A program made the position numbers and the translations under genes. 38,737 bases of DNA, taken from the IMG/VR virus record IMGVR_UViG_3300021599_001462, positions 1 to 38,737 of that record. One strand, given 5' to 3'. Under the pieces are notes generated by a model, which had not been told where the DNA came from, did not search any database, and was given only the letters and a program-made list of their open reading frames with translations. This DNA is from a virus. This document shows, piece by piece, positions 23,424-38,271 of the stretch; positions within the stretch are counted from its first letter, which is position 1; each line of letters starts with the position of its first letter.

Positions 23424-25727
23424 ATGGCAAAATATCTTAAATCAGATATAGAAAAATTCAAGAATGTATTTCACATTGCAGATATTCATTTGCGTCTTAC
23501 AAAGAGACATGATGAATACAATCAAGTATTTGAAAGATTGTATAAAGCAGTAGAAAAGACACCTGCGGAAACTGTAGTTACCGTATTGGGAGATGTTTTG
23601 CATTCAAAGAGCGATCTTTCACCAGAATGTGTAAAGATTACAACTGAATTTCTACAAAACCTAGCAGATAGAAGACCTACAGTATTGATTGCGGGTAATC
23701 ATGATGCTACATTAGCTAATAAAAATAGATTAGATAGTTTGAGTCCAATTGTTGACGCAATTAATCATAAAAACTTATTTTATCTAAAGGATTCTGGACT
23801 TTATATCTTAGGAGATATTCTATTTAATCATTATAGTGTCTTTGACGAACCAGATAAGTATATTAAAGCGAAGGATATTCCCAAGGTTTATTTAAACGAA
23901 ACTCGTTATAAAATTGCTTTATTTCACGGACCAGTAAATAATGCAATTACAGATGTAGGATATAAAGTTGCAAGTAGAACCATCACAAATCAAATCTTTG
24001 ATGGACATGACATTGTATTGTTAGGTGATATTCACAGACATCAAGTTTTAAATCAATCCGAACCAATTATTGTATATGTAGGTTCATTGATTCAACAGAA
24101 TCATGGAGAAGAATTAAAAGGACATGGTTTTGTATTCTGGGATTTGAAGACTAAAGTATTTAAACACTTTGAAATTCCAAATGATTACGGTTTTTATACC
24201 GCAGAAATTAACAAAGGTAAGTTGACTACTGATATATCTGATATGCCTAAGAAGGCAAGATTGAGATTGAAGTGTTTTGAAAGTGTTGCTACTGAAGTTA
24301 AATCTGTATTATCACATATTCGTGAAAAATCTGATGTTACTGAAGTAACTTATGTTCGTGTAGATTCACCTAATACATCATCTAATAATATTATTGACAA
24401 CAGTAATTTTAATTTGACTGATGTATCTGATGTGGATTACCAAAATAAGTTAATCACTGACTATCTTAATAATAAGAATGTAAGTCCTACAAAAGACACA
24501 CTTGAAAAGATTTATAAGATAAATAAAGATTTAAATGCATCTTTGGAAAAAGAATCTATCGTTAGAAATATTAGATGGAAACCTAAGAAGTTTGAATTTG
24601 ACAATATGTTTAGTTATGGTGAAGACAATGTTATTGACTTTACCAAGATGCATAATGTAGTTGGATTATTTGCTAATAATGCTGCGGGTAAATCAAGTGT
24701 ATTATCAGCATTATCTTTTTGTATTTTTGATAAATGTGATAGAGCGTTCAAAGCATCTCACATTCTTAATACACAAAAGATGACATTCCGTTGCAAGTTT
24801 AACTTTGAAGTTAACGGTGTAGATTTCTTCATTGAAAGAAAAGGACATGCGGATAAAAAGGGAAATGTCAAAGTAGATGTAAAGTTCTGGAAAGAAGAAG
24901 GTGGTAAAGTTGTAGAACTTAATGGTGAAGCTCGTAGAAGTACTAATGATATCATTCGTGATTATGTTGGTACATATGACGACTTTATTTTAACTGTCTT
25001 GAGCATCCAAAACAATAAGGTTGGTTCATTCGTAGATATGGGACAAACAGAAAGAAAAGATCTGTTGGCCCAATTCATGGGACTAACTATATTTGACAGT
25101 TTGTATAACGATGCGTCTGATAAGACTAAAGAAATCAATTCGTTGTTAAAGAATTTCAAGAACAATGATTATACTCAGAAGTTGTTGAATTTAAATGCCG
25201 ACATAGAAAACTTTTCTGGTTCACTTAGAAATGAAAATTCTAATTTAGAAAAACTATCTAATCAAAGAGATTCTGAAAATGATAGATTATTAGATGAAAC
25301 CAAAAAACTAATTAATGTTAACGGTAATATTATTGATATTGTTTCTCTTGAATCAAAAAAAGTTTCATTAGAAAATTCTATATCAACACAATCTTCCAGT
25401 TTAAATTCATATAAGTCCCAGTTGTTATCTGTTGAATCAACATATAAGGAATATGATGAAATTATAAAGAATTATGATAATGATGATATTACAACTAAGT
25501 ATGAATCATTTAAAGAACTAGAAACATCTTTAAGTCAAAAAGAACAGTTTATTGAAAAGAAGAAGATTGTTGTAACATCCAAATTACAAAAACTAAAGAA
25601 ATTGGAAGAACATAAGTATGATCCAAATTGTACTTTTTGTACAACCAATGTATTCGTTAAAGATGCAATTAAAACAAGAGAAGAACTTGATAAAAGATCA
25701 TTGGAAAGAATACAACGATATTCATAA
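23424..25727 (+). CDS. Mre11-Rad50 fusion (gp47-gp46), N-terminal part, frameshifted
   Basis: A 767-residue frame. Residues 1 to about 340 are a Mre11/SbcD-type phosphoesterase: VFHIADIHLRL, VLGDVLH, IAGNHDA, LFHGPV, LLGDIHRHQ. From about residue 378 a Rad50/SbcC ATPase begins: WKPKKFEFDNMFSYGEDNVI, Walker A-like FANNAAGKSS (about 415-425), Q-loop LTVLSIQNNKVGSF, a coiled coil, and the zinc hook DPNCTFCTTN (about 733-742). The frame stops at 25727, shortly after the hook. The second coiled coil and Walker B half continue in another frame from about 25696, so the gene is interrupted by a one-base shift. T4 has these two activities in separate genes 47 and 46; they process DNA ends for recombination-dependent replication. 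Confidence 0.88.
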   Translation: MAKYLKSDIEKFKNVFHIADIHLRLTKRHDEYNQVFERLYKAVEKTPAETVVTVLGDVLHSKSDLSPECVKITTEFLQNLADRRPTVLIAGNHDATLANKNRLDSLSPIVDAINHKNLFYLKDSGLYILGDILFNHYSVFDEPDKYIKAKDIPKVYLNETRYKIALFHGPVNNAITDVGYKVASRTITNQIFDGHDIVLLGDIHRHQVLNQSEPIIVYVGSLIQQNHGEELKGHGFVFWDLKTKVFKHFEIPNDYGFYTAEINKGKLTTDISDMPKKARLRLKCFESVATEVKSVLSHIREKSDVTEVTYVRVDSPNTSSNNIIDNSNFNLTDVSDVDYQNKLITDYLNNKNVSPTKDTLEKIYKINKDLNASLEKESIVRNIRWKPKKFEFDNMFSYGEDNVIDFTKMHNVVGLFANNAAGKSSVLSALSFCIFDKCDRAFKASHILNTQKMTFRCKFNFEVNGVDFFIERKGHADKKGNVKVDVKFWKEEGGKVVELNGEARRSTNDIIRDYVGTYDDFILTVLSIQNNKVGSFVDMGQTERKDLLAQFMGLTIFDSLYNDASDKTKEINSLLKNFKNNDYTQKLLNLNADIENFSGSLRNENSNLEKLSNQRDSENDRLLDETKKLINVNGNIIDIVSLESKKVSLENSISTQSSSLNSYKSQLLSVESTYKEYDEIIKNYDNDDITTKYESFKELETSLSQKEQFIEKKKIVVTSKLQKLKKLEEHKYDPNCTFCTTNVFVKDAIKTREELDKRSLERIQRYS

Positions 25728-26532
25728 ATTACATGTTGAAACACAGATTAAAATTAACAAATTAAATACTGAAATCTTAAAGTTATCAAATAATATTAGT
25801 TCCAATCAGAATTCATTAATTAATATTGATAGTCAAATCAAGGAATATTATAATAATAAAGATGCGATTGAATTTAATAAGACTGTTAAAGATACAATTG
25901 ATTCAATTAAATCTAATATTAAAACAATTGACTTGGAAATTAAGAATGTAAATAATAACATCATTAATTATAATACTAAGATTTCTGGATTTGAAGAACA
26001 ACGAAAGACTATTCAAAAGTCAATTGAAGATGTAAAAGTACTTGAAGTTGAATATGAAGCTTATCAATTGTATACAAATGCAATTTCTAGAGATGGTATT
26101 CCATATGAATTGATTAGTCGAGCTTTACCAACTATTGAAAAGGAAGTAAATAACATATTAAACCAAATAGTAGAATTTACTGTAATCTTACAGACCGATG
26201 GTAAAAATGTAACTACACATATTAATTATGAAGATAAACGATGGCCATTAGAGTTGGCGAGTGGTATGGAACGATTTGTTAGTTCATTGGCTATGAGAGT
26301 AGCGTTAATTAACATTAGTAATCTACCAAGACCCAATTTTATAGCTATAGATGAAGGATTTGGATGTGCTGATGCCGATAATTTATCATCTATGGGTGCT
26401 TTATTTGCGTTTTTGAAGACTAACTTTGATTTCGTATGGATTATTAGTCATTTGGATAGTATGAGAGATATGGTTGACAATAGACTTGAAATTAAGAAAG
26501 AAAACGGGTTCTCTAAAGTTAATTATGTATAA
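25618..26532 (+). CDS. Mre11-Rad50 fusion, C-terminal ATPase half (other frame)
   Basis: A 304-codon frame. Its first 26 residues, before 25696, are probably not translated as such, since they are the zinc-hook region read out of frame. From DHWKEYNDIHKLHVETQ onward it is the returning Rad50 coiled coil, then the C-terminal ATPase lobe: signature ELASGMERFVSSLAMRVAL, Walker B FIAIDEGFGCADADN and the H-loop WIISHLD. Dropping one A from the AAAA at 25692-25695 joins it to the previous frame as one 1035-residue protein. It is not a free-standing gene as far as can be seen: no ribosome site, and it lacks its own Walker A. Either the base is an error or expression needs a +1 shift. Confidence 0.85.
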   Translation: MIQIVLFVQPMYSLKMQLKQEKNLIKDHWKEYNDIHKLHVETQIKINKLNTEILKLSNNISSNQNSLINIDSQIKEYYNNKDAIEFNKTVKDTIDSIKSNIKTIDLEIKNVNNNIINYNTKISGFEEQRKTIQKSIEDVKVLEVEYEAYQLYTNAISRDGIPYELISRALPTIEKEVNNILNQIVEFTVILQTDGKNVTTHINYEDKRWPLELASGMERFVSSLAMRVALINISNLPRPNFIAIDEGFGCADADNLSSMGALFAFLKTNFDFVWIISHLDSMRDMVDNRLEIKKENGFSKVNYV

Positions 26533-32631: not shown

Positions 32632-33414
32632 ATGATCAAGTTAACCGACTTATTATTAGAAACACAATTGCCTTCTAGTGAACAAGATATGGATTTTTAT
32701 GCTAAAAAGTATAAGAAAACAATCGACTATTTAAGAGAAAAAAATAAGGTATTATTGTTGACAACCAGTAATAGATGGTCACAACATAAAGAAGATGTAC
32801 CAAAAAGCAATCAACTAGCTACTAAAATCCAAGATTTATTAGGCAAAGAAAAAGTAACATTGATTGATACAACCAAACTTAATATATTTCCGTGTGAAGG
32901 AAATGTTAGTAGTAATAGAGAATTTGGTGGCAATCATTGTGGAACATCAAATGCTTTATTAAAAGATAAAGAAAAGAATCCAAGTGGATATCATCGTTGT
33001 TGGGCAAGTATAAATGAAAAAAATGACGAATTGTGGAAGGTAAGTAAAGAACTTTTTGAAAGTGATACTGTTCTATTTTTTGCTAGTATTAGATGGGGAC
33101 AAGCTAATGGTTACTATCAAAAATTGATTGAAAGATTGACATGGATAGAAAATAGACACAGTAATTTGGGAGAAAAAAACATTGTAAAAGACATTGACGC
33201 TGGATTTATTGCTACTGGACAAAATTGGAACGGTAAAGATGTCACTCAAACACAAAAAGAAGTACTTCAATTTTTTGGATTCAAAACACCAAATGAATTA
33301 TTTTGGAATTGGCAATTTACCGATAATACTCTTGACGAAACTAATCGTTCATACAACAAAGCAATTACTGTATTTGATAAAACATTTTTAAAACCATATG
33401 ATAAAGCTGAATAA
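32632..33414 (+). CDS. Flavodoxin-fold NAD(P)H-dependent FMN reductase-like protein
   Basis: A 260-residue protein. Core elements fit the FMN reductase/flavodoxin fold: strand 1 VLLLTTSNRWSQ (about residues 40-52), then LIDTTKLNIFPCEGN, HRCWASINEKNDELWKVSKE, and the next strand-loop DTVLFFASIRWGQANGYYQK, where family members have a P-x-x-x-x-S/N flavin loop. GFIATGQNWNG follows. The first ten residues, MIKLTDLLLE, form a short leader ending in an L-x-E motif, like the processed head-targeting leaders of T4 internal proteins; the next gene has a related leader. The redox substrate is unknown. Its last 17 bases overlap the following gene. Why a phage would carry it between sheath and terminase is unexplained. 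Confidence 0.68.
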   Translation: MIKLTDLLLETQLPSSEQDMDFYAKKYKKTIDYLREKNKVLLLTTSNRWSQHKEDVPKSNQLATKIQDLLGKEKVTLIDTTKLNIFPCEGNVSSNREFGGNHCGTSNALLKDKEKNPSGYHRCWASINEKNDELWKVSKELFESDTVLFFASIRWGQANGYYQKLIERLTWIENRHSNLGEKNIVKDIDAGFIATGQNWNGKDVTQTQKEVLQFFGFKTPNELFWNWQFTDNTLDETNRSYNKAITVFDKTFLKPYDKAE

Positions 33415-36370
33415 TTTAGAACATTTTTTGGTATCTAATATATTACTTAACGAAGCTACTCGTATAGACCATGCAGAAGATTTGATATTCTGGGAAGGTT
33501 CTAAAGGAGCAATTCGTTCCATTAAAAGTTTCATTGAATTGGAAAAAGACGGATATAAAAATGTAACGATGAAATGGGACGGTTCTCCAGCAGTTGTGTT
33601 TGGAAGAAACGATGAAGGTAAATTTGTGCTAACCGATAAAAGTGGGTTTGTTGCTAAAGGTTATAACGGTAGACCAACATCACCAGAAGAATTGGAACAA
33701 ATGTTTTTAGGTAGAGGTAAAAGCGTAAAAACAGACGAATATAGATTGTTCGTTCAAAATATGAAAAGTACATTTTCTATATTTGAATCATCAGTTCCAA
33801 CTACATTTAGAGGTTATTTCAAAGGCGATTTACTATATTTTAGTACACCATTAATTGAAAATGGAAGATATGTTTTTAAACCAAATATCGTAACATATAC
33901 AGTAGATGTTAATTCTGAATTGGGAAGAAGAATTGCACAAAGCAAAGCTGCGGTTGTAGTACATAGAGAAGTAGACAACTTTGGAAATGAAACTGCGATT
34001 ACAAATTACAATGTATTTCAAGGTAAACAATTGTTAGTAATACCACCAATATCTGTAAATAATCCACCAGATGTAAATGAAAAACGATTAAAAGATATTG
34101 TACTTTATATTAATAAACATGCTAGAAACATAGATGATTTTATTAATCCATCTAAATTGGCAAGTATGAAGATGACCAATTTCCCAGATATATTATATAA
34201 ATATTTGAATAGTAAAGTTGATACTGGATTGGTAAATATTGGTGATGATTTTCTACAATGGATTAGTCAAAGTAATCTTACAGATGCGATGAAAAAGAAG
34301 ATTACTGATTATGTAAATAGTAATCGTGACGGATTTGATTCTTTATGGAAAGTTGTTGTAGAAATAATGTCGGTAAAAGATGAAATAATTAATCAAATTG
34401 ATAATCAAGGTAGTGAAATTAAATCATATATAGGCAATGAACCAGGAGGTGAAGGTTATGTATTCTCTCACCCAGAAGGTGACATTAAGTATGTTTCTCG
34501 TTCCAAATTCAGCGCAGCAAATAGAGCTGCACATAAACAACCAATTGATGAAGGTGGTTGGTTAAAACCAGAATTGACATCCAAAACAGTTTTGACACCA
34601 GATACAATAGAAAAATCAACTGAAAAGTTTAAAGATTTTTTAGGTGACTTGAATAAATTTTTGATTGACAAATCATTACCGGAAATTAAGGATTATCAAA
34701 TATTAGGTTCTGCTGGATATTACAAACAAGATCAACAAGATAAAAAAGAAGTAACTTACGGTGACATTGATGTAATGGTGGTAATACCAATTGAAAGTGC
34801 GGAAGAAAGTAGTGATAAAAAGAAAGAATACATTAAAAATGTAATTGAATTTATTGAAACAAGTGGTCAAAATTACATTGATATTGAAAGTGCCAAAAGA
34901 TCTGACGGCAAACAAATTGTAATTAAGATTGATGAAGATACTTGGGTACAATTAGATTTATTATATACTACAAAAATATATAAAGATTGGTTTGCAGCCA
35001 GATTTACACCTGAAAGAGGTATAAAAGGATTTACAATGGGTGGAATGTATTCTGCACTAGCAGAAGTTCTTAATATTAGAATTGGTGATACTGGCGTAAG
35101 AGCCAAATTCAAAGACGGTAAAATTGTATCACCAATGTTAAGAAAAGATGTTGTTGATAAGTTGATATCCAACAGTCCTTCCACATTTTTAAGAGATTTA
35201 TCTGACTTTTTAGCTGGTTTGTTTGGAAAGAAAATTACAACAATTGATCCAAACTTATCTGCACATAGTGGTGTAAATCCAAATGATGTAAAATTAAAAG
35301 ATTTAACTACTGGCGTTTTGGGTTTTGCAAAAACACTTGATGCAAATGGTATTCTTACAGATTTAGGATTTGATTACAAATCATTTATCAAAGCAATAAA
35401 AGATAAATATGCAGAAAAAATGATTGAACAGTATGCTAAAAAAGAAAAGAAAGCAACTACACCAGAAACTCAAGCATCTATTGATAAAATCAAAAAACAT
35501 GCTGATTTGGGAAACAAAATCGTCAATGATATATTAAAAGAATTATTGATTACAGAAGGAGGTAATGCAGTTGCTGCCAATAGTGATTTACCTAAAGAAC
35601 ATTTGGAATCTACCATAAATAATGGTTTGAAAATTTGGAATCTTGATAAATTAAAGTACGAAGTAATTGGTAACAAATCCAAACCAGTATTAGGAGATAT
35701 TGATGTTGCTGTATCTACTGATCAAATAAATGAATTATTAGGTATTAATTATGATTATGATAAAAAGACATTTTATGAAAAATTAAAACTGCATGTAGAA
35801 TCAAATGTTCCGTCAAATGTTCCAATACCATCTTTTAAAATAAATACTGGATTAGACCAACTACATTTGAATGTACCTATAATTGATGAAAATGGTAATC
35901 CAGTAAAATCTACTGAAACACCAAATGAAGATGGATATGTACAAATTGATTTGATGATAGGTGATTTAAATTTTATGGTTAAAGCTTTATCTGGAGCACC
36001 AGAATCAAAGTATAAGGCAGCACTAAGAAATATTCTATTAATGAATATTATGTCACATAGTTATGAACCTACCGAAGATCCAAATAAGATGAAGAGATAT
36101 CAAATGAATTGGAAAAAAGGTCTTCAAAGTGCAGATGTAGTAACAAATGAAAAGGGAAAACAAGAAAAACAAAATATAAAAACTGTTTATACCGACATGG
36201 ATGACGTTGCTGAATTTTTATTTGGCAAAAATGTAACATTTAATGATATTAACACTTTAGAAAAACTAATTAAATTAGTGAAAGGTAATACTTTTCGTTA
36301 TAAAAACAAAAGAACTGAAATCTTCGACGATTTCAAAAAGGAATTGGATAGATTAAAAGTAAAGTTATGA
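33398..36370 (+). CDS. Ligase-like and double nucleotidyltransferase multidomain protein
   Basis: A 990-residue protein. Residues about 20-380 look like a covalent nucleotidyltransferase (ligase-type) domain: motif I TMKWDGSPAVVFG (Lys59), motif III-like GYFKGDLLYF (about 139-148), motif IV-like EGYVF (352-356) and a motif V-like Lys in GDIKYVSRSKF (K364). Two pol-beta-type nucleotidyltransferase modules follow. The first has ILGSAGYY and GDIDVMV (455-461) with a partner Asp in VQLDLLY (D520). The second has GDIDVAV (766-772) with VQIDLMIGD (D851). The N-terminus, MIKLNNLEHFLVSNILLNE, resembles a head-targeting leader ending in an L-x-E cleavage motif. Target and nucleotide are unknown. It overlaps neighbours at both ends (17 and 4 bases). 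Confidence 0.72.
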   Translation: MIKLNNLEHFLVSNILLNEATRIDHAEDLIFWEGSKGAIRSIKSFIELEKDGYKNVTMKWDGSPAVVFGRNDEGKFVLTDKSGFVAKGYNGRPTSPEELEQMFLGRGKSVKTDEYRLFVQNMKSTFSIFESSVPTTFRGYFKGDLLYFSTPLIENGRYVFKPNIVTYTVDVNSELGRRIAQSKAAVVVHREVDNFGNETAITNYNVFQGKQLLVIPPISVNNPPDVNEKRLKDIVLYINKHARNIDDFINPSKLASMKMTNFPDILYKYLNSKVDTGLVNIGDDFLQWISQSNLTDAMKKKITDYVNSNRDGFDSLWKVVVEIMSVKDEIINQIDNQGSEIKSYIGNEPGGEGYVFSHPEGDIKYVSRSKFSAANRAAHKQPIDEGGWLKPELTSKTVLTPDTIEKSTEKFKDFLGDLNKFLIDKSLPEIKDYQILGSAGYYKQDQQDKKEVTYGDIDVMVVIPIESAEESSDKKKEYIKNVIEFIETSGQNYIDIESAKRSDGKQIVIKIDEDTWVQLDLLYTTKIYKDWFAARFTPERGIKGFTMGGMYSALAEVLNIRIGDTGVRAKFKDGKIVSPMLRKDVVDKLISNSPSTFLRDLSDFLAGLFGKKITTIDPNLSAHSGVNPNDVKLKDLTTGVLGFAKTLDANGILTDLGFDYKSFIKAIKDKYAEKMIEQYAKKEKKATTPETQASIDKIKKHADLGNKIVNDILKELLITEGGNAVAANSDLPKEHLESTINNGLKIWNLDKLKYEVIGNKSKPVLGDIDVAVSTDQINELLGINYDYDKKTFYEKLKLHVESNVPSNVPIPSFKINTGLDQLHLNVPIIDENGNPVKSTETPNEDGYVQIDLMIGDLNFMVKALSGAPESKYKAALRNILLMNIMSHSYEPTEDPNKMKRYQMNWKKGLQSADVVTNEKGKQEKQNIKTVYTDMDDVAEFLFGKNVTFNDINTLEKLIKLVKGNTFRYKNKRTEIFDDFKKELDRLKVKL

Positions 36371-37026
36371 AAAGAGCAACAGGAAAAAGCAATCTTGACA
36401 TAGTTAAAGATTATGTCGATGGTAACCGTCCATTTATTCAAGTTGGTTATGATCCTAACTTGAATAATAGTAAAAGAAAAGAAGGAGAAGAATGGGAAGA
36501 TGCACAAGGTAATAAATGGATGTGGAAAAACGGAACCAAAAGAAAAGTATCTAAACTTGGACAAATAAAGATTGATCAAAGATGTAGTATCTGTAATGCG
36601 GATATGAAATTTGGTAATTATCTTGATGATAGATTTTTTCCTAAAACAGGTAAATGTTATGATTGCACTATTTCATTCGACAGTAAGTTAAAATCATTAG
36701 GAGTATATGCTGATTATGAACGATATAAAATTTATAATAATATGCTTTCTGAAATGAAGGATTTCAAGAAAAATATTACTGATAGCATTGAATATCTAGA
36801 AAAAAATCCCGAAGAAAAGTTACAATTTTTTAATGATGACGGTAGTCAAGAATTCTGGACCGATGATACTACACAAATACAAAAAGTATTGTCTGATTTG
36901 AAAAATGATTTAAAAGATGTTGACGAAAATATTGCAAAAGCCAATGAAGAATTGCTCAAATTAAATTATAACCCAGAAATTGAGAAAAAAGCAAAACAAT
37001 TGGTGTTGGATAGATTAAATCAATGA
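36367..37026 (+). CDS. Zinc-ribbon and coiled-coil protein upstream of terminase
   Basis: A 219-residue protein. An N-terminal basic part (MKRATGKSNLDIVKDYVDGN) is followed by WEDAQGNKWMWKNGTKRKVS and a four-cysteine zinc ribbon: CSIC (about residues 76-79) and CYDC (about 98-101), 18 residues apart. Residues about 125-215 are helical and coiled-coil-like (VLSDLKNDLKDVDENIAKAN). It overlaps both the preceding and the following gene by four bases, so it is coupled to the large terminase. In T4 the gene at this place is the small terminase gp16. This protein has no evident similarity to it, so a small-terminase-like or packaging accessory role is only positional inference. Confidence 0.7.
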   Translation: MKRATGKSNLDIVKDYVDGNRPFIQVGYDPNLNNSKRKEGEEWEDAQGNKWMWKNGTKRKVSKLGQIKIDQRCSICNADMKFGNYLDDRFFPKTGKCYDCTISFDSKLKSLGVYADYERYKIYNNMLSEMKDFKKNITDSIEYLEKNPEEKLQFFNDDGSQEFWTDDTTQIQKVLSDLKNDLKDVDENIAKANEELLKLNYNPEIEKKAKQLVLDRLNQ

Positions 37027-37727
37027 GTACTCCTAAAACACTTAAAGAAGTAATTAAAGAAGAATACAAGAAATGTCTTGTAGATCCGATTTATTTCATG
37101 AAGAAGTATGTTAAAATTCAACATCCTATTCGTGGAACGGTAAACTTTGATTTGTATGAATTCCAAGAAAAGACTTTAACTGATTTAGTCGATCATGATT
37201 TTAATATTATATTAAAGTCTAGACAGATGGGTATTAGTACATTAACCGCAGCATATAGTTTGTGGTTAATGGTATTTCATAAGGATAAAAATGTTCTTTG
37301 TATTAGTATTAACCAAGAAACATCCAAGGAAATTGTTACCCGTGTTAGATTTGCTAATGATAATCTTCCTTCATGGTTAAAAGTAAAAGAACAAGAAGAT
37401 AATAGGTTAAGTTTAAGATTGACAAATGGTTCGCAGATTAAAGCCGTGTCATCCGCAGGTACATCTGGTCGTTCTTCTGCATTGTCATTGTTGATTATTG
37501 ACGAAGCAGCATTCATTGATAACATTGAAGAAATTTGGTTATCTGCTCAATATACATTAAGTACTGGTGGTAGAGCAATCATGTTAAGTACACCAAACGG
37601 TGTTGGTAATTTCTTTCATCAAACATGGATAAAAGCAGAGGCTAAGGAAAATAAATTCAATACGATTAGACTGCCTTGGCATTTACACCCAGAACGTGAT
37701 CAAACTTGGAGAGATAAACACCAATAG
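37023..37727 (+). CDS. 17: Large terminase gp17, ATPase domain (interrupted)
   Basis: A 234-residue frame with the packaging ATPase of T4-like terminases: the adenine-binding YEFQEKTL region, Walker A-type LKSRQMGISTLTA (about residues 65-77), Walker B LLIIDEAAFID (about 157-167) and the coupling motif MLSTPNGVGNFF (about 189-200). It ends at LPWHLHPERDQTWRDKHQ, where related terminases continue through roughly 40-60 further residues (typically AAQECDCDF) into the nuclease domain. The rest of the gene appears in another frame from 37721. As assembled it codes only the motor half. The family call is certain. Confidence 0.93.
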   Translation: MSTPKTLKEVIKEEYKKCLVDPIYFMKKYVKIQHPIRGTVNFDLYEFQEKTLTDLVDHDFNIILKSRQMGISTLTAAYSLWLMVFHKDKNVLCISINQETSKEIVTRVRFANDNLPSWLKVKEQEDNRLSLRLTNGSQIKAVSSAGTSGRSSALSLLIIDEAAFIDNIEEIWLSAQYTLSTGGRAIMLSTPNGVGNFFHQTWIKAEAKENKFNTIRLPWHLHPERDQTWRDKHQ

Positions 37728-38107
37728 AAATGAGAGGAATGGATCATGGATATTGGATATGGGAATATCCCGATTATAGTAGAAATTATATAGTTAGTGC
37801 GGATGTTGCTAGAGGTGACGGAGCGGATTATAGTGCATTTCAAGTTCTTGATGTAGAATCATTGACACAAGTTGCTGAATATAAAGGACAAATTGGCACT
37901 AAAGATTATGGCAATATGTTGGTAAGTGTAGCTACAGAATATAATAATGCTTTACTTATCGTTGAAAATGCAAATATTGGTTGGGCAGTTTTACAACAAA
38001 TAATAGATAGACAATATCCAAATACGTTCTATAGTAGTGCAGACCTACAATACGTTGATGTTGAAAGACAATTGACTAATAAAGTTAACAGAGATGAAAA
38101 GAATTAA
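37721..38107 (+). CDS. 17: Large terminase gp17, nuclease domain fragment
   Basis: The first ATG is at 37730, but homology begins slightly upstream (PIEMRGMDHGYWIW from 37721), so this is a fragment rather than a gene with its own start. It contains the RNase H-type nuclease start SADVARGDGADYSAFQVLD (first catalytic Asp) and LLIVENANIGW (second acid), then DLQYVDVERQLTNKVNRDE. It stops at 38107, exactly where related proteins continue for about 100 residues to the third catalytic Asp (YNDDLVMS region). That part is missing here. It is in a different frame from the ATPase half. It appears broken at both ends. Confidence 0.9.
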   Translation, partial: PIEMRGMDHGYWIWEYPDYSRNYIVSADVARGDGADYSAFQVLDVESLTQVAEYKGQIGTKDYGNMLVSVATEYNNALLIVENANIGWAVLQQIIDRQYPNTFYSSADLQYVDVERQLTNKVNRDEKN

Positions 38108-38271
38108 GACAACAAAGTATGGATTTAAATAGATCAATGTTGGGTGGGATTACCAGAATTGGAGGATCTCAAAATATTTATAAAGCGCAATCGGTGAGTA
38201 GCCAAGAAGCATGGCAAATGACAACAGGAAAAATTACAGATAAAAAAGAAAACCTAACTTGGTTATTGTAA
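38104..38271 (+). pseudogene. 17: Large terminase gp17, C-terminal tail fragment
   Basis: In a third frame the sequence LRQQSMDLNRSMLGG begins near 38104. An ATG at 38119 would give 50 residues ending KENLTWLL. T4-like terminases typically end with an LRxxGM-type helix followed by a flexible tail finishing in (R/T)WLL or similar, so this is best read as the native C-terminus detached by a second out-of-frame deletion. It is not a free-standing small gene. Confidence 0.75.

Follow-up and report, generated by a model that had tools for sequence, protein, structure and literature searches.

The stretch of DNA analysed here, referred to as the window, is a 38,737-base IMG/VR virus record (IMGVR_UViG_3300021599_001462) from a T4-like myovirus, an assignment given by its tail sheath (PF04984), T4-type terminase (PF03237) and baseplate wedge genes. 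Positions 33398-36370 hold a gene on the plus strand, as are all features of it described below, with an ATG start and 990 codons plus stop. Its product consists of a short N-terminal leader, a ligase-like domain of the Pfam family DUF6267 and two DNA polymerase beta (pol-beta)-like minimal nucleotidyltransferase modules (MNT1 and MNT2). The original prediction for this locus described a single 990-residue protein with KWDG at Lys59, EGYVF, K364 and two GDIDV motifs at residues 455 and 766, each with a partner aspartate, and all of these residues are present. Its division of the protein into three nucleotidyl-transfer-type modules is likewise backed by profiles, motifs and AlphaFold/Foldseek comparisons. 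The ratio of non-synonymous to synonymous substitution rates (dN/dS) is 0.094 for the whole gene and 0.07-0.2 for its segments, indicating strong purifying selection throughout. Given the low values in DUF6267 (0.07), MNT1 (0.10; 0.103) and MNT2 (0.11), all three modules are maintained by selection.

The ligase-like domain (residues 20-380; 33455-34537) was characterised with the PF19782 profile, AlphaFold2 and Foldseek. Residues 22-378 match DUF6267 with an E-value of 1.4e-31 and 110.6 bits, against a cut-off of 27, and the N-terminal 360 residues of the protein thus belong to PF19782 / phrog_455, a family of uncharacterised function that is common in cyanophages. This bears out the original remark on uncharacterised KWDGxPA relatives in those phages. 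Motifs I, III, IV and V of the KxDG nucleotidyltransferase (ATP-dependent ligase) superfamily are all conserved. In 74 sequences the invariant residues are K59, D61 and G62 of motif I (KWDG, from residue 59; 33572-33583), G143 and D144 of a motif III-like KGDLLY (residues 142-147; 33821-33838), and E352, G353, V355 and K364 of motifs IV (EGYVF, residues 352-356) and V (K364 within IKYV; both motifs at 34451-34489). The AlphaFold2 model of the domain has a mean predicted local distance difference test score (pLDDT) of 89.7, with residues 1-20 mostly disordered. Ligases are prominent among its weak Foldseek matches in the PDB (a tRNA ligase from a fungus, DNA ligases I and III, and the ligase of African swine fever virus, ASFV). 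Once direct homologues are set aside, RNA ligases make up most of the BFVD matches, the best of them having probabilities of 0.4-0.85 and low template-modelling (TM) scores. Searches of PDB sequences with DUF6267 by phmmer and hmmsearch gave only off-target weak matches (eS8, TLE1), and a literature search outside subscription journals found no paper naming the family. Several DUF6267-matching proteins of ~600-900 residues, one of them from S-PM2, are labelled cytidyltransferase-like in BFVD, which suggests fusions.

MNT1 (residues ~413-580; 34634-35137) and MNT2 (residues 721-990; 35558-36367) are both matched by a model of the MNT family from which close relatives had been kept out, at 15.0 bits (i-E 6.5e-7) and 51.7 bits (i-E 4e-18), respectively, the i-E values being those of a one-sequence search. 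Because this independent model detects both, the two modules most likely diverged within a single family. An earlier model that scored MNT1 at 5e-32 was dropped, as it had probably recruited MNT1 itself. Both modules show the features of the DNA polymerase beta superfamily, GS...GDxD with a third aspartate and a pol-beta palm. In MNT1 the motif GDIDV (residues 455-459; 34760-34774), with D456 and D458, and the partner D520 (VQLD; 34955-34957) are conserved, and in MNT2 D767 and D769 of GDIDV (residues 766-770; 35693-35707) and the partner D851 (VQID; 35948-35950) are invariant in 41 aligned sequences. Conservation of Lys59 and of the aspartates of both GDIDV motifs, on which the original prediction had staked its assignments, was found. 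As for the folds it had expected, ligases are among the weak matches of the DUF6267 model, and the two-MNT model matches DNA polymerases beta and lambda with a Foldseek probability of 1.00. Searches of the PDB by phmmer or hmmsearch with the full 990-residue protein or the MNT profile returned nothing significant, the best match of the profile being a sub-threshold RNA uridylyltransferase (E 0.11). When each MNT module was used singly in tblastn against phages, only insignificant matches resulted, and the MNT family outside the lineage was reached only via an intermediate homologue, L054.

Ahead of the ligase-like domain stands a 19-residue leader, MIKLNNLEHFLVSNILLNE (33398-33454), a predicted propeptide and capsid targeting sequence (CTS) with a pLDDT below 50 over most of residues 1-20. 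It ends in the predicted prohead-protease site L17-N18-E19/A20 (33446-33457; slashes mark predicted cuts), which fits the L/I-x-E rule of the T4 prohead protease gp21 (PMC9026906), and the protein thereby carries the N-terminal leader that marks T4-type head-targeted proteins. A head-targeting-like leader ending in L-x-E, similar to those of T4 internal proteins, was part of the original prediction and is now seen in most free-standing members of the family: [LI]xE lies within nine residues of the domain in 77 of 89 distinct DUF6267 leaders. Shuffling the leaders gives 19 on average and 27 at most, and the N-termini of other genes give 23, with a maximum of 38. Among 26 relatives of the window protein, P3 of the site is L or I and N18-E19 are invariant. 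Free-standing DUF6267 proteins begin, for example, MKKFNQYIIE/A, MLSFKNYLAE/A or MHNFKSFITE/S, resembling T4 internal proteins, of which IPIII and IPII begin MKTYQEFIAE/A. The T4 internal-protein propeptides are 10-19 residues long and gp21 cleaves them after L/I-x-E; in the IPIII leader, residues 4 and 7 act in targeting and 8 and 10 in processing (PMC9026906). The end of the window leader, LLNE19/AT, has the same six letters as QLLNE60/AT, the predicted propeptide site in the major capsid protein (MCP) of the near relative L250, a gp23-type protein (2.5e-71); the equivalent site in T4 gp23 is FLTE65/AE. Judged from these sequence comparisons, the DUF6267 leader looks real as a head-targeting signal.

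L/I-x-E occurs 11 times in the protein. With G, S or A after the glutamate it is found four times, and three of these sites lie at module boundaries in low-pLDDT linkers (E19/A, E385/GG and E720/GG). The first predicted internal site, I383-D384-E385/GG (34544-34558), is in the low-pLDDT linker between DUF6267 and MNT1, just beyond the point at which free-standing DUF6267 proteins end, and its surroundings (PIDEGGW) are identical in 26 of 26 relatives. The second, I718-T719-E720/GG (35549-35563), precedes MNT2, and I718, T719 and E720 are invariant in 26 relatives. Since sites of this kind lie at both internal module boundaries, the 990-residue product is probably a precursor; the original description of one protein holds for the open reading frame (ORF), but probably not for the mature product.

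The same placement recurs outside the lineage. In 57 of 65 homologous MNT modules L/I-x-E/[GSA][GK] directly precedes the module, whatever lies upstream, from 4 to about 830 residues. One further module is preceded by F-x-E, and three start M-(x)GG, which would yield nearly the same mature end as cleavage. An independent fusion with the order MNT then DUF6267 (L216, 1105 residues) has both boundaries marked, by TLNE/GG and DLTE/AR, and in a 625-residue fusion (L056) one L/I-x-E site precedes DUF6267. The S77 (gp21-type) prohead protease is encoded in 8 of 15 larger records, including 5 of 7 that carry three-module relatives (L250 among them); the window stops short of this region, and the protease was seen in the relatives' larger contigs. 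Processing of a polyprotein by the prohead protease would account for all of these boundary-site and fusion patterns, for which coincidence is a poor explanation. Given the leader and the conserved L/I-x-E between modules, the product of the gene is probably a polyprotein that is packaged in the head and cleaved to yield three enzymes. In L181, L182 and L196 (987-1099 residues) a C-terminal MNT, with L/I-x-E/GG directly before it, follows an N-terminal domain with a DRVNDERN motif and long Ala/Gln/Asp-rich repeats.

We found the same three-module protein in about 46 contigs, where the best-matching segment is at least 88% identical. A search directed at MNT1 returned this lineage only (at least 79% identical), and the three-module form is therefore not known to be widespread. 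Most DUF6267 members are free-standing proteins of about 400 residues, present in hundreds of viral contigs; the DUF6267 query matched 465 of 50,697 phage records, mostly cyanophages. Free-standing MNT proteins form a third set of relatives. Of 85 MNT loci, 49 have DUF6267 immediately after the MNT gene, the stop codon of the first mostly overlapping the start of the second, and two more have the genes fused. This frequency is biased upward because the loci were chosen by similarity to L054, which itself has DUF6267 downstream. Simple in-order fusion of such genes was dropped as an origin for the window protein, as the free genes run MNT then DUF6267 and the window runs DUF6267-MNT1-MNT2. Beyond DUF6267 itself, a gene with the motif EK[ILV]DG adjoins the MNT gene, or lies close to it, in jumbo phages (Pseudomonas phage PA5oct, Agrobacterium phage Atu_ph07 and Sinorhizobium phage Phosso) and in the viral contigs L238 and L240. 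These partners are distantly related to DUF6267 (hhalign 96%), and three of the five match Pfam RNA_ligase or RNA_lig_T4_1 weakly and below threshold (E 0.001-0.003), with one more at 0.085. The MNT homologue of PA5oct, EST35_0231, is annotated 'structural protein, ESI-MS/MS' in the note of its record, which is the sole experimental hint of the MNT family in virions. Other genes also adjoin these loci: HIGH-type cytidylyltransferase-like proteins lie next to DUF6267 or MNT genes (L048 7168-8265, L049 7191-8246, L050 7180-8253 and L201 4522-6948) and start with L/I-x-E leaders of their own, e.g. MRFRQFIIE/A, and in L053 (729-1529) a peptidoglycan-binding/cell-wall hydrolase protein with the leader-like start MRLKEFVKE sits between MNT and DUF6267.

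The motifs, homology, conservation, site positions, recurrent pairing and the protease in close relatives were computed directly, and they allow us to put forward a model, tentative but favoured, of a head-packaged polyprotein that is cut, ejected and active in nucleic-acid end repair. The leader would carry the 990-residue protein into the prohead core, where the gp21-type (S77) protease would cleave after E19, E385 and E720 to release a ligase-like enzyme (residues 20-385), MNT1 (386-720) and MNT2 (721-990). The three enzymes would be ejected together with the DNA and be active at once in the new cell; an MNT would re-add lost nucleotides and the KxDG ligase would seal the break, the most plausible substrate being tRNA or rRNA cleaved by host anti-phage nucleases. 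Our confidence differs between these steps. Packaging of the protein and cutting of its leader are very likely, whereas cutting at the internal sites and ejection of the modules into the cell are each probable, and RNA repair as the task, with the catalysis and substrate that it implies, is a suggestion we make with some reserve.

A ligase together with template-independent nucleotidyltransferases would suit the repair of nucleic-acid ends. We favour RNA over DNA because the paired ligase genes lean to RNA ligases, and because RlaP nucleotidyltransferases are paired with RNA ligases in jumbo phages (PMC7824862). RloC excises the wobble nucleotide (PMC2610378), and a tRNA cut in this way would require re-addition as well as ligation since, with a nucleotide lost, sealing alone is insufficient. 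In its most specific and rather doubtful form, the proposal is of an effector polyprotein whose three repair enzymes, separated by the capsid-maturation protease, mend host-inflicted RNA damage before phage gene expression, with DUF6267 as the ligase of such kits.

A number of observations weigh against this model of packaged repair. The best PDB match of the DUF6267 structure, a tRNA ligase, reaches only E 0.03 with a poor TM-score, and none of the ligase profiles compared (Pfam, including PF09414, Rnl1 and Rnl2) matches the domain. The AlphaFold2 model of the two MNT modules is of moderate quality (pLDDT 67.7, predicted TM-score 0.43), and the Pfam RlaP profile does not match the MNT modules at E up to 1. 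As to delivery, the window leader has 19 residues and not the canonical 10-residue form, and the DUF6267 proteins of Kyanoviridae lack a leader, beginning at the domain, and are encoded among replication genes. The support for the E385 site consists of its position and its conservation among close relatives. In PA5oct the MNT is leaderless and ~30% identical to the L054 homologue, and its KxDG neighbour carries no mark of detection by mass spectrometry.

The strongest alternative, though an unlikely one, is that the modules are head-packaged host-modification enzymes, ejected like T4 Alt, that attach nucleoside monophosphates to host proteins or tRNAs (AMPylation, tRNA nucleotidylation) for takeover. 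Proteins and tRNA ends are frequent targets of minimal nucleotidyltransferases, and two MNTs of differing specificity would fit such a role. T4 Alt provides a precedent, as it follows the same packaging route and modifies host RNA polymerase (PMC9026906; PMC5512222), and the leader and site evidence is shared with the repair model. Host modification needs no KxDG ligase-like partner, however, yet such a partner accompanies MNT across distant phages. Of the two proposed uses, nucleic-acid end repair is the better supported.

Less likely still is head-packaged repair of DNA gaps, in which pol-beta-like fill-in and ligase sealing would mend nicks and gaps in the injected phage genome. PolX and the ligase of ASFV have been proposed to act together in this manner, and both the top Foldseek matches of the MNT modules (DNA polymerases beta and lambda) and the presence of DNA ligases I and III and the ASFV ligase among those of DUF6267 would agree with it. 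Against this, RNA ligases predominate among the BFVD ligases that are not direct homologues, Pfam RNA_ligase is matched weakly by the paired KxDG genes, the MNT profile yields in the PDB only the sub-threshold RNA uridylyltransferase, and no DNA-binding domain came to light. That the protein is instead a late intracellular multidomain enzyme, never packaged, with leader and L/I-x-E sites that are coincidental or serve other roles, would suit the leaderless Kyanoviridae proteins and the shortness of a motif found 11 times, but is improbable in view of the excess of leaders over shuffles (77 of 89 against 19), the 57 of 65 MNT junctions, the identity of the leader site with the MCP site, the position of the gene within a virion-structural region and the PA5oct mass-spectrometry annotation.

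Elements of the packaged-repair model are already known: T4 Alt and the internal proteins are head-packaged, protease-cut and ejected, phage proteins with several enzymes have been described (PMC5512222), and RNA ligases are known to pair with nucleotidyltransferases. Like T4 IPI-IPIII and Alt, which are CTS-targeted, cut by gp21 and ejected, the window protein has a short L/I-x-E leader with a small residue after the predicted cut, and relatives encode the S77 protease. It differs from them in its unrelated enzyme content and in having predicted sites between several folded enzymes, as in a polyprotein. The polyvalent proteins of Iyer et al. (2017; PMC5512222) are similarly single phage proteins with several enzymatic domains, probably delivered at infection, but they depend on MPTase or MuF/ART-type parts, whereas the window protein would use the phage's T4-type prohead protease and its three parts are all nucleotidyltransferases. 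With the RlaP-RNA ligase pairs of jumbo phages (PMC7824862) it shares the genetic pairing of a pol-beta-superfamily nucleotidyltransferase with a KxDG RNA ligase-type enzyme; unlike those pairs, it has no Pfam RlaP match, its DUF6267 falls outside the RNA ligase profiles and its modules bear head-targeting and processing signals. Within PF19782 / phrog_455, the two-MNT fusion is found in one lineage only. Neither this combination nor a DUF6267 family that is ligase-like and bears leaders was found described in the literature outside subscription journals, and the same holds for T4-type cleavage of a polyprotein made of enzymes.

The model gives DUF6267, a widespread family lacking a known role, a testable function, and suggests that head maturation may also process effector polyproteins. 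T4-like leaders and prohead-protease sites may be the signature of a broader group of enzymes delivered by virions, for which L/I-x-E before GG or a domain start offers a usable search handle in other phages. With RNA repair as their task, such enzymes would let phages arrive pre-armed against tRNA-cutting defences.

The gene stands between sheath and terminase, as originally described, with the tail sheath (PF04984, 2e-11) upstream and the terminase (PF03237, 5e-11) downstream, each separated from it by one small gene. The upstream neighbour (32632-33414, plus strand) encodes 260 residues that are flavodoxin/flavin mononucleotide reductase-like by eye only, with insignificant matches only in Pfam. 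It starts MIKLTDLLLE/T, the sole other leader of the L/I-x-E kind among the 31 ORFs of the window, and the form MIKLTDLLLE/[AT]Q is conserved in 24 relatives; this neighbour is possibly another head-packaged protein.

The terminase ORF is broken in the window (37023-37727, 37730-38107 and from 38119; region 37023-38271) and is a single 531-residue frame in L250, which points to indels in the window record, real or assembly-derived. One reading frame (23424-26532) joins an SbcD/gp47-like phosphoesterase to an SbcC/gp46-like ATPase and is frameshifted near 25.7 kb in the window; because six relatives have the frame intact at 1064 residues, this single-chain fusion of Mre11-Rad50 type seems genuine. 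At the other end of the window, positions 122-1405 hold genes for a GlcNAc-type glycosyltransferase (PF11397, 3.5e-40) and an Hsp20 chaperone (PF00011, 8e-24).

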